Origin: a virus
Length of the DNA: 64,000 nucleotides
Reading direction: 5' to 3' (one strand)
Virus record (IMG/VR): IMGVR_UViG_3300023235_000012
Span: 62,001 to 126,000 of that record
How positions within the stretch are numbered: position 1 is the stretch's first letter; each line of letters begins with the position of its first letter. This document shows, one piece after another, positions 84 to 62,302 of this stretch. Position numbers and translations under genes: made by a program. The notes below the pieces were generated by a model, which saw only the letters and a program-made list of their open reading frames with translations, ran no database searches and was not told the DNA's origin.

Positions 84-632
84 TTAAAAAACATCCATAA
101 TATCCAGAACATCGTTCATCTTGTCTGAATCATCGACGAAATAAACGCATTCGGGATAGCTAGTTTCTTTTCCGGTTATCATATCTTTCCTGCTAACCCA
201 TTCTGACGGGTTCCCTAATGGAACGGCAAGAAGCTGCTTCTTCTGGAGTCTAGGAGTAAACCAACTGGTGACGCTAGTATAGCTATTTGAAATCTGTACA
301 GGCTGAAATTTTGGAACATAGCTCTTGAACGGATTGAGAACATATGCTTCATAATCAAAGTTTGGTAATTCTTCGATGTCGACTAGTTCCAATTCACCCT
401 GAATAGCATCACCTGTCAAAATCCTCCAGTTCATCGGTACTTCGAGTTGATACTTTCCAATCGAAAGTTGAACAGCAGGATATTCATATTCGTTGAACAT
501 CGTCAGGTTAACAAAATAATAGTCAATATCATCCGGATTGGATGCATCCAAAATTGCACATTTCTGCTTACTTATCCCGTCAACTATTTGAGTGATATCA
601 AAAACGGTATTTTCTGGTGTTAAAATTCGGAT
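84..632 (-). CDS. Unknown protein with a probable ATC start codon
   Basis: Product not recognised. With only ATG/GTG/TTG allowed, the frame would begin at a TTG at 551 with no ribosome binding site, inside what reads as continuous coding sequence. The frame is open up to a TAG at 650-648, and the region between codes well (residues such as RILTPENTVFDI). Directly upstream is GAGGAG, and an ATC codon lies 6 bases after it (632-630), giving a 182-residue protein. No ATG, GTG or CTG exists between the stop and 552. The protein is acidic, has no signal peptide and ends with DVLDIMDVF. It has its own promoter at 667-695. The ATC start is an inference from the binding-site spacing; uvsX and the PAAR gene in this window show the same pattern. 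Confidence 0.7.
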   Translation of the reverse strand: MRILTPENTVFDITQIVDGISKQKCAILDASNPDDIDYYFVNLTMFNEYEYPAVQLSIGKYQLEVPMNWRILTGDAIQGELELVDIEELPNFDYEAYVLNPFKSYVPKFQPVQISNSYTSVTSWFTPRLQKKQLLAVPLGNPSEWVSRKDMITGKETSYPECVYFVDDSDKMNDVLDIMDVF

Positions 633-19186: not shown

Positions 19187-19410
19187 TAATCCACGTCATA
19201 TTCGTCATCGGGATCTTCTTCTATCTTCGTTTTTTCTTCTATGGCTTCATCTAGAAAGCTACAGCGTCCATGAACTTCTTCAAAACGACTCACATCAATT
19301 CCACAATCCTCAAATATTTCAACAAATCGAAAAGCAGCTTCTTCAAGCTCTTTATCGGTAGTATGTGCCATAAAAAGCTGCCAAAGATCAATAAACAATT
19401 CTTCTTGCAT
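19183..19410 (-). CDS. Small acidic protein between uvsX and uvsY
   Basis: 75 residues, very acidic C-terminus (EEDPDDEYDVDY). Unrecognised. Its ATG overlaps the uvsX stop by one base and its stop overlaps uvsY, so the three are translationally coupled. A DNA mimic or a regulator of recombination would fit the acidity but is a guess. Confidence 0.7.
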   Translation of the reverse strand: MQEELFIDLWQLFMAHTTDKELEEAAFRFVEIFEDCGIDVSRFEEVHGRCSFLDEAIEEKTKIEEDPDDEYDVDY

Positions 19411-20489
19411 TATTCCTCCAAAACTTCACCGGTTTCCGGATCGATTTCTTCTGTTTGTTTAACTTCTGGTTCATCATATCCAGCCATCATTTTGTCAAAA
19501 ATTTCAGGTCCATAATTCTTGCGGAAATCTTTAAATTCAGTACCATCTGGACTATTGTACTTATACCGATTTCCTTCTTTGATAATCAGACCTTTCTTCT
19601 CAAACAAATCGAACAAACCCGAATATGGATCCATTCCTGTTTCCCAAGGAATTCTGATTTCAATCTTCTCAAAGGGTTTCGCATAACGAGACTTTCTAAC
19701 TTGTGTCGATGCGCGGATACCAGTAACGTTTGTTACCTTGTTTCCATTTGCATCTTCCTTTAGCTTTAATTTTTCAAGTGCAACGATGATTGAACTTGCA
19801 AATTCAATAATCTTCCCACCAGTGATAACTGAATCAGGTCTGAACATGTCCTGTGAATCATATGTATGATTTGTGACCACCAATCCAATGTTCTCCGAGC
19901 CGATAAGAGCAGTGACATTCTTTACCAATGATCCAAGCTGTTTAGCTTTTCGACCCATATCACCTTTCATATCACCTTTCTGAAATTGATCCTGATCGGT
20001 CGGTGTTAATAGCATCCCAATAGAATCAACGACGAAGAGTAGCATTGGTCGATCTTCAAGTGGAAGATTGCCATATTCTCCCTTGTACTCTTTGATAAAA
20101 TCATTGATGAACTTGGCGACATCATCGATAAAACTAGCATTAATCTTCATGATTTTATCAGGACTAGTATCGACTCCTAGTTTTGTAAGCCATTCTTCAT
20201 CTAGAGCGTTTTCACTATCAATGATTACCGGGAAGATGCCTTTCTTTTGTGCATCTTTTACCAAATTTGCTGAGACGATATACGACTTTCCTGAACCCGA
20301 TGATCCGGCAAACATTGTCATCTTTCCTTCAAGAGGAACACCCCCATCCCATCTTCCAGAAATCAGAAAATTAAGGGCATAACTTCCGGTATCTAGCCAG
20401 GTTTTTGGATCATTAAAACCTTCACTAATTCCACCGATCCCCTTAGTTACTGACTTGCGAAATTTTGAAATATCAACTGGTTTTGTGAT
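19410..20489 (-). CDS. uvsX: UvsX RecA-like recombinase, ATC start
   Basis: 359 residues, RecA-fold strand-exchange protein. Walker A is GSSGSGKS near 62-69; Walker B is LLFVVDS; the L2-like region and TGEVLEE C-terminus follow. The first ATG of the frame (20321) lies at the P-loop, which would delete the N-terminal 56 residues needed for filament formation. Those residues are coded upstream (VDISKFRKSVTKGIGGIS ...). AAGGAGG lies 5 bases before an ATC at 20489, and the frame upstream of it holds no ATG, GTG or TTG before a TAA. So translation must begin at ATC (or the neighbouring ATA). Confidence 0.93.
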   Translation of the reverse strand: MTKPVDISKFRKSVTKGIGGISEGFNDPKTWLDTGSYALNFLISGRWDGGVPLEGKMTMFAGSSGSGKSYIVSANLVKDAQKKGIFPVIIDSENALDEEWLTKLGVDTSPDKIMKINASFIDDVAKFINDFIKEYKGEYGNLPLEDRPMLLFVVDSIGMLLTPTDQDQFQKGDMKGDMGRKAKQLGSLVKNVTALIGSENIGLVVTNHTYDSQDMFRPDSVITGGKIIEFASSIIVALEKLKLKEDANGNKVTNVTGIRASTQVRKSRYAKPFEKIEIRIPWETGMDPYSGLFDLFEKKGLIIKEGNRYKYNSPDGTEFKDFRKNYGPEIFDKMMAGYDEPEVKQTEEIDPETGEVLEE

Positions 20490-20532
20490 TATAACCTCCT
20501 TCTGTCTATTGTCAGACAGGTATTACGATAAA

Positions 20533-50021: not shown

Positions 50022-51896
50022 TCATATGGCCATCCAAGCTTTTCTATCATCTGCTCTCTTACCGTCGAAAATCAAGTTTAGCGTTTCCTCTAGCTTGCCA
50101 TCATCTGTTAATAAAATCAAGCGGGGATTATCAATCGCGTGCTTCCAATTTTCCTTTCTCAACGTCCCTAATCCTTTTGCACGTCTAACCGTGGCTCCTT
50201 TCCAATCACTAGACTTGAACTGTTCATAATCGTTGCTATACCAATAATGTCTTTCTTTTCCTTTTTCAACGATGATAAATGGTGTCAAGAAAATATAAAA
50301 GAATGGATTTTTTTCATCAAAAAGTTCAGGCCAAAATCGATAGAAGAAGTTGGTCAAAAGAGCAGTGATGTTTGCACCATCTTGATCCATGTCACATGCG
50401 ATGTAGACCTTACCGTATCGTAGACCTTGTCTATTTGCTGGTTGTCCAATGACAAGTCCCAAGCTATTCATTATATCTGCTAGGGCCTTGGACTCGAGGA
50501 CTTTCTTGGGATTTTCTCCGTGAACGTTCATGACCTTTCCTCTAAGAGGAAGTCCACCGTGAAGTTTAGGGTTTCGAACGTTTGAAAAACCTGAGATAGC
50601 TGAATCGCCTTCTGCTAGCATCAAGATGCAATCAGTTCTGATACGACTCGTGGCATCCATAAGACTAGGTATCTTATTTCTAAGGTTTCTCTTCGCTTCT
50701 CTCGTTACATCCGCTTGATCTTTCTTTTGTGTACGAACCGCGGTACGTTCAAGGATTTCTTCCACCCATTTTTTGTTCTGTGAAATTACCTGCTTAAACA
50801 ATTCCTCTTGATCAAGTTGAGCTCTGATTGGTTTCTTCACTTCTTCATTGATCAATTTCGTTTTCGCCTGATTCCCAAAATAAGGAGCCTTCATCTGCGT
50901 TACACTAAAAATCAAAAGACCCTCGAGTAAATCAGAACGATTTGGGACCAGTTTTTGTCTCCGAGCAGGTTTCTCCAAGGCTTTAAGCATCTGATAGGTA
51001 AAAATTCGCTTGAACTCATCAACGTGCTCGCCACCATCAAAGGTTGGCACGTTGTTTACCAAGCTATGAACATGATCGCCTTGTTCCGTCACGTTCGGAA
51101 GAACATAAAAAACAGATTTGAAATCTTCTTGCTCGATAGTAAAGATGATCGGCTTCTGTGTTCCAAAAAGTGTCTTCTCTAAGCTTGCTTTTGCTTGTAC
51201 CTTCTTTCCATTAAAATAAATCTTCAGCTTCGGGTTTGCTGCTGCAATTTCAAGGAGACGGGATTCTAAAAACTCGATTGGCAAGGTGAGGTTTTTGAAC
51301 ACTTCTTCCGATGGTCGGAAGTGGATGAACGTCCCTGTTCTTGGACTACTGTTCTTTGAAATTTTTGGTTTGAAAATCTGAAGGGCATCATCTACCGCGT
51401 TTCCCTGTGTGAAACGCTGTGTGAATTTTTTTCCATCTCTGATAATTTCGACCTCAAAAAACTCTGAGCAATAATTTGCAATAGAAGCACCCACACCATT
51501 CATTCCGGCGCCGACTCTCATGCTATCATCAAAGTTTCTGCCTGCCCTCGCTTCAGAAAGGACCATCGTCGCGAGGTACTCTTTATGGGTCTTATCTTTT
51601 TCGATTGGTATACCACGACCGTTGTCTCGAACACTGAAGTCCATTTTTTCTTGATCGTAGGTTACGTCAAGGCGATCACCGTGTTTTTTTCCAATCAATT
51701 CATCCAATGCATTATCGATGATTTCTCTGACTGCTGTCAAAAGAGCAGGTACCCAAATCATCTCTTTTACCACTGCCTTTCCACCTTCGAACATTAAAAC
51801 AGTCTGTGCGTGGTTTGATCTGGACCCAAAATAAGTTTCTGTTCTCAACCTTGCGTGCTGATAGTCAGATAACTTCTTGATATCATCGTCTTTCAT
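50022..51896 (-). CDS. 39: DNA topoisomerase II ATPase/TOPRIM subunit (gp39/60)
   Basis: 624 residues. GHKL ATPase motifs IIDNALDE, RDNGRGIP and GAGMNGVGAS; TOPRIM motifs LAEGDSA and DMDQDG. In T4 the subunit is split into gp39 and gp60; here it is one polypeptide. A late-type GTAAATAA element is 30-40 bases upstream. Confidence 0.93.
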   Translation of the reverse strand: MKDDDIKKLSDYQHARLRTETYFGSRSNHAQTVLMFEGGKAVVKEMIWVPALLTAVREIIDNALDELIGKKHGDRLDVTYDQEKMDFSVRDNGRGIPIEKDKTHKEYLATMVLSEARAGRNFDDSMRVGAGMNGVGASIANYCSEFFEVEIIRDGKKFTQRFTQGNAVDDALQIFKPKISKNSSPRTGTFIHFRPSEEVFKNLTLPIEFLESRLLEIAAANPKLKIYFNGKKVQAKASLEKTLFGTQKPIIFTIEQEDFKSVFYVLPNVTEQGDHVHSLVNNVPTFDGGEHVDEFKRIFTYQMLKALEKPARRQKLVPNRSDLLEGLLIFSVTQMKAPYFGNQAKTKLINEEVKKPIRAQLDQEELFKQVISQNKKWVEEILERTAVRTQKKDQADVTREAKRNLRNKIPSLMDATSRIRTDCILMLAEGDSAISGFSNVRNPKLHGGLPLRGKVMNVHGENPKKVLESKALADIMNSLGLVIGQPANRQGLRYGKVYIACDMDQDGANITALLTNFFYRFWPELFDEKNPFFYIFLTPFIIVEKGKERHYWYSNDYEQFKSSDWKGATVRRAKGLGTLRKENWKHAIDNPRLILLTDDGKLEETLNLIFDGKRADDRKAWMAI

Positions 51897-51933
51897 GTTT
51901 GGTCTCTTTATAGTTGCCTATTATTTACACATA

Positions 51934-51967
51934 GAAATTCCGTGTTATTTTCATAACACGGAATTTC
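51934..51967. terminator. Strong hairpin between the VWA pair and gene 39
   Basis: Perfect 14-bp stem (51934-51947 with 51954-51967), 6-base loop. Only short T tracts follow on either side. Probably ends transcription of the VWA operon. Confidence 0.65.
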
Positions 51968-51982
51968 ATTTAAGTCAATAAC

Positions 51983-52786
51983 TTACTTCGGACGTGTACA
52001 GTAATCACTTGGGAACGCTTCCGCACCCTGTATTGATCTCCGCTGTTTTTTGAGAAAAACATCAACACCGCGGGCCTTCAGACCTTTCAAGGTGTCGTAG
52101 TATATTACAACGTCTTCGACATGATCTCCCTTTTCAAACTCTTCTCGAACCGTGGAAAAGTTAGTGTCCTTTCCCCAACCAGTTCCGAGCTCTTTTGGTT
52201 GTTGTCGTGTATCGGCCATTGAAAAATTATCCGCTGGAGTAAGTACAAAGCTCGAAAAAGTTCCACTATCCGAACCACTTTCCCAATGAAATGGACTTTT
52301 CCTCCACAACGGCACATCATCAAATGGCAATGGAGGAAAATTCCAAGGTACTGGGTAATCAGGAACCTTTGGGATCTTTGGGATTATGATCGGTTGCTTT
52401 TCATCAAAGATTCTAACCCCAATCACACCGTTATTTTTATCACCATGACCCATCTTCTGTGCATAGCTTTCCTCTTTCTTCGAAAGACTGAAGTAGAATT
52501 TCGCAGCAGTCTGCTCATTCTGAAGCCAACCAGGAATAGAGATCGATTCAAACGCATCGATAATAAAACCTTTGGAGCTATCGCCTGCAAGCTCACCGTC
52601 GATGGTTGAAAGGCCATCCACCGAAGTAATACATAGCCTTCGTTTATTTGATCTATTCTTGATGGAGATCTCAAAATTAGAACCGTGTCTTCCTTCAATG
52701 AAGGTAAGGCCTTCGTGCTTAAATTCTTGGATACTATTTCCACGAACAAGGATTGTGATTTCTGAATTAACTGTCTTCATTATCAT
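51983..52786 (-). CDS. Hypothetical partner of the VWA protein
   Basis: 267 residues. N-terminal beta-rich part, a proline-rich linker (IPKIPKVPDYPVPWNFPPLP) near 140-160, C-terminal mixed region. Not recognised. Overlaps the VWA gene by 20 bases, so the two are coexpressed and may form a complex, as in VWA-based bacterial systems. Confidence 0.65.
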   Translation of the reverse strand: MIMKTVNSEITILVRGNSIQEFKHEGLTFIEGRHGSNFEISIKNRSNKRRLCITSVDGLSTIDGELAGDSSKGFIIDAFESISIPGWLQNEQTAAKFYFSLSKKEESYAQKMGHGDKNNGVIGVRIFDEKQPIIIPKIPKVPDYPVPWNFPPLPFDDVPLWRKSPFHWESGSDSGTFSSFVLTPADNFSMADTRQQPKELGTGWGKDTNFSTVREEFEKGDHVEDVVIYYDTLKGLKARGVDVFLKKQRRSIQGAEAFPSDYCTRPK

Positions 52787-61246: not shown

Positions 61247-61969
61247 TCAGGCATAATGTAATGTAAGACCGCCACTATAATCGTTATTGATCATCGTCAA
61301 GACTTGTCTTCGTTGTGATCCGCTAGCTCCGTTGAAACTGACATGAAGCCAGATGTTATTTCCGTGTTCAAGAATAAACTGATCAAACAGGAGGTTATCT
61401 CGACAAAAATTTGCTCTTCTCAAATATTCTTGATTTGAGATCCCAGGCCATTGAACGTCCGCTGCCATTCCTCTTTCATGTTGACTTTTACCACCTGTTC
61501 CAGTTCTGAATCCAGAGTTAATCCTGAATCCTGGAAAAGCAGACCACAATGGCTCTAAGCAATTTTCACATAAAGACTTTAGATTACATATCATTTCAAG
61601 ATCGGTGAAACCATGCTGTGCTTGAATTGAATGAGAGAAGAATGCCCCAAGTGATAGATCTCTGACAGTGAAATTTCGAGATAACGAAAAACTATAATCA
61701 ACTTCCGTAAAATCACCACAAGAAGTAATCTCTGGTGAGATTGAAGATGTAGGCTCAGTTAGATCCGTCGGGCCAGAACTCGTAGTTGGTGGGTTATTCA
61801 ATGGATACGATTCAGGAATCTGGTCTTTGGTAACCTCTTCATCAAATGGTGCTTCTCTTCCTGCGACGGAAATCAGCTTTGCTGCTGCTTGTGGAGAGTA
61901 ACTATTGATAACTCCTACTGGAATATTTCCAGTATATGATGTCGATGAACAAGATGGATTGATTGACAT
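61247..61969 (-). CDS. M15-type peptidase domain protein (tail-associated)
   Basis: 240 residues from the ATG at 61969, one base after the PAAR stop. The longer frame to 62023 reads through the PAAR gene. The C-terminal 110 residues contain SQHERGMAADVQ (zinc His and Asp) and WLHVSF (last His), typical of the D-Ala-D-Ala carboxypeptidase (M15) fold. In this neighbourhood it may digest peptidoglycan cross-bridges during DNA entry. N-terminal 120 residues are low-complexity, Ser/Thr-rich, perhaps a linker. Confidence 0.8.
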   Translation of the reverse strand: MSINPSCSSTSYTGNIPVGVINSYSPQAAAKLISVAGREAPFDEEVTKDQIPESYPLNNPPTTSSGPTDLTEPTSSISPEITSCGDFTEVDYSFSLSRNFTVRDLSLGAFFSHSIQAQHGFTDLEMICNLKSLCENCLEPLWSAFPGFRINSGFRTGTGGKSQHERGMAADVQWPGISNQEYLRRANFCRDNLLFDQFILEHGNNIWLHVSFNGASGSQRRQVLTMINNDYSGGLTLHYA

Positions 61970-61970
61970 T

Positions 61971-62255
61971 TTACCCCGCGAAGACGTTTCCTGATCCTGT
62001 TGCGCAGAATGACCCGCATGCAATAGGATCGCCTATTCTAGCTAATTGAAGACCGTTTACCATAACGATAGGCGATCCTGCCGCCAGATTTGAGTCATGA
62101 CACGGAGGTGGACAGCAATGGGTCACCCAGTGATCTCCTAGTCGGTGTGCTGGGATTCCATTGACAAAAACATTCGAAGATCCTTGGTCGTTTGGGCGTG
62201 GTGGCCAACAATCGTGGCCGCTGCAAATATCTCCTAGTCTGACTACTGCTGGAAT
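61971..62255 (-). CDS. PAAR spike-tip protein, ATT start
   Basis: 94 residues. The PAAR signatures are clear: RLGDICSGHD, NVFVNGIPAHRLGD, WVTHCC and the C-terminal ARIGDPIACGS. PAAR proteins cap the baseplate spike. No ATG, GTG or TTG lies before the first conserved residues; AAGGAGG ends 6 bases before an ATT at 62255, giving M-P-A-V-V, which is just where PAAR proteins begin. Upstream in this frame are only ATA, TAT, CTA, TTA, AGG, AGG, TGT, ATC down to a TAA. So the start is ATT (or ATC). Confidence 0.9.
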   Translation of the reverse strand: MPAVVRLGDICSGHDCWPPRPNDQGSSNVFVNGIPAHRLGDHWVTHCCPPPCHDSNLAAGSPIVMVNGLQLARIGDPIACGSFCATGSGNVFAG

Positions 62256-62302
62256 GATACACCTCCTTAATAGATATATTTATTATTCCAGCATAGAGGA
62301 TA

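Follow-up and report, generated by a model that had tools for sequence, protein, structure and literature searches.

Three near-cognate AUC and AUU start codons behind Shine-Dalgarno sequences in a phage that encodes its own IF3

Introduction

Where does translation of a phage recombinase begin when its reading frame offers no ATG, GTG or TTG ahead of a conserved N-terminal segment? The uvsX gene raises this question in a 64,000-nucleotide stretch of viral DNA (the window, positions 62001-126000 of the 137,267-base virus record G000), for which an initial annotation had proposed a start at ATC. Near-cognate starts with extended Shine-Dalgarno (SD) motifs that attenuate bacterial translation are already known; what is new here is the occurrence of three near-cognate starts in one phage with its own IF3. 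The interest lies in the fact that the same record encodes the factor that polices start codons, and start-codon stringency may be under this phage's control. If so, a phage could possess initiation fidelity as a layer of control of its own, and the many phage IF3 and bS21 genes would gain a specific role open to testing. For annotation, gene callers restricted to ATG, GTG and TTG would truncate uvsX and lose the N-terminal half of the PAAR protein in this phage.

Results

The uvsX locus was resolved into the following features.

19410-20489, minus strand: uvsX, a RecA/UvsX-like recombinase of 359 aa with start codon ATC at 20489-20487 (PHROG 97, PF00154, relatives' starts, contig L087)
20495-20501, minus strand: extended SD AAGGAGG of uvsX, 5 nt before ATC (from the sequence; -12.4 kcal/mol, second strongest of 128 starts)
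20319-20321, minus strand: first canonical uvsX start in frame, an ATG just before the P-loop, use of which would drop 56 conserved residues
20502-20519, minus strand: putative hairpin element just 5' of the uvsX SD, stem CTGTCT/AGACAG, overlapping a sigma70-like promoter match

Direct checking of the sequence bore out the initial annotation on two points. After the TAA at 20525-20523, the minus-strand frame is open for 370 codons (20522-19410) and holds no ATG, GTG or TTG before the ATG at 20321. The AAGGAGG (20501-20495) is followed by TTATA and then by ATC, placing it 5 nt 5' of the proposed start. The alternative ATA at 20492 would leave a spacing of only 2 nt. The product belongs to the UvsX family over its ATPase core (phrog_97 E=2.3e-64; PF00154 E=5e-16), with the Walker A P-loop GSSGSGKS, and the N-terminal columns D6, K9, F10, R11, T15 and K16 are invariant in an alignment with 13 relatives. 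An AlphaFold model of UvsX had a mean pLDDT of 54.9, too low for use. The sigma70-like promoter match (CTGACA-16-TATAAT, 11/12, window 20488-20515, minus strand) overlaps the uvsX SD and ATC, and a terminator-like hairpin at 20584-20570 follows the SSB gene.

The segment upstream of the internal ATG behaves as coding sequence. Codon usage scanned over every gene of the 137-kb record singled out uvsX as a clear outlier for coding upstream of the first canonical start, with a score of 15.5 against 4.5 for the next gene. Compared with the contig of its nearest relative, L001, codons 2-56 gave pN 0.13 vs pS 0.78. These codons are conserved at least as well as the remaining ones and are therefore taken to be translated; judged by this comparison, purifying selection acts on the 55 codons that precede the internal ATG.

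The starts of uvsX were then compared across 80 relatives from metagenomic viral contigs (54-69% identity); a search of bacterial genome contigs for relatives found none. Canonical starts coincided with the ATC column or preceded it by one codon, mostly as ATG with a few GTG or TTG, and never as ATC, ATT or ATA at the aligned column (n=80). At this point L001 (69% identity) has ATG ACC AAA CCA against ATC ACA AAA CCA in the window. The possibility that independent sequence would show ATG or GTG at 20489 was largely set aside by a second, separately assembled contig (IMGVR_UViG_3300022842_000274, L087), 99.97% identical with two mismatches, which also carries ATC. In PA5oct-like phages (L238, PA5oct NC_071039, 2626-3897), the UvsX match does not start until query residue 74, and another site in the record also matches, next to a Hef-like homing endonuclease; this is possibly a split intein at the P-loop.

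The initial annotation had mentioned two further cases in the window, most probably the ATC at 632 and the ATT at 62255, and relatives supported both.

84-632, minus strand: phrog_11279 protein of 182 aa with start codon ATC at 632-630 (PHROG E=1.2e-40; relatives; contig L088)
639-643, minus strand: SD AGGAG of gene 632, 6 nt before ATC (from the sequence; SD rank 14/128)
61971-62255, minus strand: PAAR-motif spike-tip protein with start codon ATT at 62255-62253 (PF05488 E=9.5e-14; no canonical start before mid-gene)
62262-62269, minus strand: extended SD TAAGGAGG of PAAR, 6 nt before ATT 62255 (from the sequence; -13.4 kcal/mol, strongest of 128)
62247-62293, minus strand: 9-bp perfect inverted repeat TGCTGGAAT/ATTCCAGCA at the PAAR start, pairing the ATT start with the SD in the loop

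For gene 632, all 11 relatives checked have ATG in the ATC column, and contig L088 (metagenome 3300022842) repeats the ATC. L087 and L088 each differ from the window by 2 mismatches per about 6.5-6.9 kb, which makes sequencing error at the two ATC codons very unlikely. For PAAR, ATG or GTG occupies the column of ATT 62255 in 58 of 80 relatives, and most of the remaining ones start one or a few codons off; the collection held no second independent contig covering this start. The N-terminal segments gave pN 0.08 vs pS 0.64 for PAAR and pN 0.32 vs pS 0.66 for gene 632. The hairpin at the PAAR start is a possible second control of this gene. After PAAR lies an endolysin-like gene (window 61247-62032, minus strand) listed from TTG 62023, for which an in-frame ATG just past the PAAR stop is the likelier start.

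The whole record was searched for more such starts. A homology scan of all open frames, independent of SD motifs and later extended with 56 frames having a homologue above 60 bits, returned uvsX, gene 632 and PAAR, with no further convincing case. The codon-usage scan flagged two of these three genes, picking up 84-632 as well as uvsX; it missed PAAR, which scored negatively on the codon model and was recognised by reading open frames. Neither scan used the SD. In all three genes no canonical start gives the conserved N-terminus, relatives place their canonical start in the near-cognate column, and the change affects the third base only. Additional candidates from a scan of strong SDs were internal to longer genes or had no homology support, and -_60180_60743 and -_65820_66944 were judged chance alignment extensions. 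No Rfam elements were found in the window.

The SDs of the three genes are unusually strong. By SD:anti-SD duplex energy, PAAR (-13.4), uvsX (-12.4) and gene 632 (-9.1 kcal/mol) ranked 1, 2 and 14 among 128 starts, and the three exceeded the canonical starts with a rank-sum P of about 2.4e-4. AAGGAGG precedes none of the 125 canonical starts. The extended SDs of uvsX (5 nt) and PAAR (6 nt) stand at productive spacing, and the AGGAG of gene 632 (6 nt) is shorter. Altogether, strong SDs precede 43 canonical starts and the three near-cognate genes in this record.

The record also encodes two components of the initiation machinery, about 10 kb outside the window (G000 51804-52703, equivalent to window -10196 to -9297).

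G000 52212-52703, minus strand: IF3, complete gene with start TTG (PF00707 E=3.4e-25)
G000 51804-52205, minus strand: bS21 homologue, directly downstream of IF3 (PF01165 E=7.8e-10)

The phage IF3 aligns to solved IF3s in the N-domain, linker and C-domain (phmmer to 5me0_Y E=8.9e-32, residues 3-146). It carries a five-residue deletion in the N-domain loop that corresponds to E. coli residues 29-33, a variable feature that does not define IF3 membership; the other phage IF3s examined have lost at most about two residues there. Work exists on residues R25, Q33 and R66 of the E. coli IF3 N-domain, and our literature search found no paper testing the loop equivalent to residues 29-33. An effect of the deletion on initiation fidelity is plausible because the IF3 N-domain contacts the elbow of the initiator tRNA (PMC5037330). 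Searches of the record yielded no IF1 gene and no suppressor or initiator tRNA genes, and the collection held no second independent contig for the IF3 region. Sinorhizobium phage Phosso has a tRNA-Ile(tat) annotated a short way downstream of its IF3 gene (L208 1819-1911).

Relatives and other IF3-bearing phages were examined for the same trait. Among strong-SD starts, supported near-cognate cases numbered 0/197 at uvsX loci, 0/79 at IF3 loci, 0/25 in G004 and 0/13 in the Atu_ph07 stretch. Four larger IF3-bearing contigs yielded no supported case. G009 gave one ATT candidate, which had no homology support, and none came from the G007, G010, G012, 121Q and Atu_ph07 stretches. Fisher tests gave P = 0.016 when the large relatives served as comparison and 0.002 once the uvsX loci were included, values that are rough in that starts are not independent and the unsupported ATT candidate was left out. 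A general use of near-cognate starts by phages with IF3 was thus rejected, and IF3 is not a sufficient cause, since other IF3-bearing phages have no supported case. Because each gene has ATG in its closest relative, the near-cognate starts are a recent trait of one lineage. The suggestion in the initial annotation of a rule rather than an accident therefore holds in part: the pattern is structured, with third-base changes only and the two strongest SDs of the record, but it does not extend to other phages that carry IF3.

Discussion

Initiation very probably does occur at AUC in uvsX, at AUC in the phrog_11279 gene and at AUU in PAAR. The start positions, the compensation by strong SDs, the conservation of the N-termini and the occurrence of genes for IF3 and bS21 are established. 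From these we infer reduced, IF3-dependent translation and a role for the phage factors. A strong SD at optimal spacing would hold AUC or AUU in the P site, where the initiator tRNA would be placed. The weak third base pair would lower the yield and expose initiation to the stringency of IF3, and the SD would restore part of the loss. Once made in the infected cell, the phage IF3 with its shortened loop and bS21 would be the likely partners setting the efficiency of these starts, and they may shift the initiation balance as infection proceeds.

Precedents for the separate steps exist. AUU and AUA starts with extended SDs in S. aureus gave about 10% of AUG expression (PMC13009471), a GTC start is repressed by IF3 in Streptomyces sigR (PMC5472188), and IF3 allows departures from Watson-Crick pairing at the third position of the codon alone, the weakest pairs there being excluded (PMC10158994). 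The added claim, that initiation at the three phage codons is reduced and governed by initiation factors, has about an even chance of being right. The same balance of belief and doubt applies to the full account, namely AUC and AUU initiation with SD compensation, an IF3-sensitive lowering of yield and phage IF3 and bS21 as likely partners, which we consider the best explanation. UvsX is normally an abundant protein, so attenuation of uvsX in particular is odd. A stronger version, which we regard as rather improbable, is a start-codon switch. Here the loop-shortened IF3 and bS21 would change ribosomes so that AUC and AUU behind strong SDs become productive, and uvsX, the PAAR tip and the phrog_11279 gene would be turned on only after the phage factors are made.

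Near-neutral drift with SD compensation is a serious rival, to which we give somewhat less than even weight. Three starts would have lost their third-base G and been rescued by strong SDs; AUC and AUU initiation would be real, would serve no regulatory purpose and would be unrelated to IF3. The ATG in the closest relative of each gene makes the changes recent, other phages carry IF3 and no such starts, and uvsX, PAAR and gene 632 share no obvious function, all of which agrees with drift. Against it, about 130 genes show three losses, each at the third base, whereas roughly 1.5 Mb of sequence from relatives contains no supported case. ATC also reverts to ATG by one mutation, and a quick regain would be expected if the codon were a mere handicap.

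The remaining explanations are far weaker. A host with relaxed initiation, or a phage initiator tRNA reading AUC and AUU, would make these ordinary starts. In its favour, the 137-kb record is perhaps incomplete and its tRNA genes could be missing; this reading is nonetheless quite unlikely, given that the record has no tRNA and only about 3 of 130 starts are near-cognate, with extreme SDs that mark them as weak and not ordinary. Still less credible is production of UvsX only from the internal ATG at 20321, perhaps via the promoter match over ATC. The 11/12 promoter match and the AAGGA upstream of ATG 20321/20315 speak for it, but the 56 residues that would be lost are conserved in relatives and under purifying selection, the perfect SD would precede nothing, and the AAGGA derives from conserved EGK codons. 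The promoter match is treated as a rival only, because transcripts from it would lack the uvsX start. Sequencing or assembly error with true ATG codons is the least credible of all: the record is a metagenome assembly with PAAR and IF3 regions covered by a single contig in the collection, but the separately assembled 3300022842 contigs, which differ elsewhere, repeat ATC at both sites, and third-base hits in three starts with exceptional SDs would be improbable. The repeated ATC in L087 and L088 and the conservation of codons 2-56 thus make the internal-ATG and error readings unlikely.

The preferred reading, of SD-supported and IF3-sensitive AUC and AUU starts, can be set beside known systems. 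The initial annotation had placed such starts mainly in infC; they do occur there, and also outside it in E. coli pcnB (cited in PMC13009471) and in S. aureus cvfC1 (AUU) and ccpN (AUA) (PMC13009471). Like the phage genes, infC, pcnB, cvfC1 and ccpN have AUH instead of AUG and an extended SD at proper spacing (PMC13009471). Those genes are bacterial, whereas the present ones are phage recombination and virion genes with predicted attenuation. With Streptomyces sigR (PMC5472188) the common proposed principle is a non-canonical start that depends on IF3 stringency; here IF3 is also phage-encoded, and the dependence is putative. Phage-encoded bS21 has been described (PMC9723584) and is located at the SD-antiSD helix; start-codon choice was not linked to it there, and the homologue in our record adjoins the IF3 gene. 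For jumbo phage IF3, a role has been proposed only in general terms (PMC7824862). The IF3s of 121Q, RaK2, Atu_ph07 and Phosso are homologous over both domains, but the present phage differs from them in the five-residue loop deletion, the adjacency of bS21 and the near-cognate starts in its record. Nivinskas et al. reportedly described in 1992 an internal AUU start in T4 gene 26, so AUU initiation in a large myophage is shared with our case. The T4 start is internal and secondary, whereas in the phage analyzed here the near-cognate codon is the main and only start of the full-length proteins.
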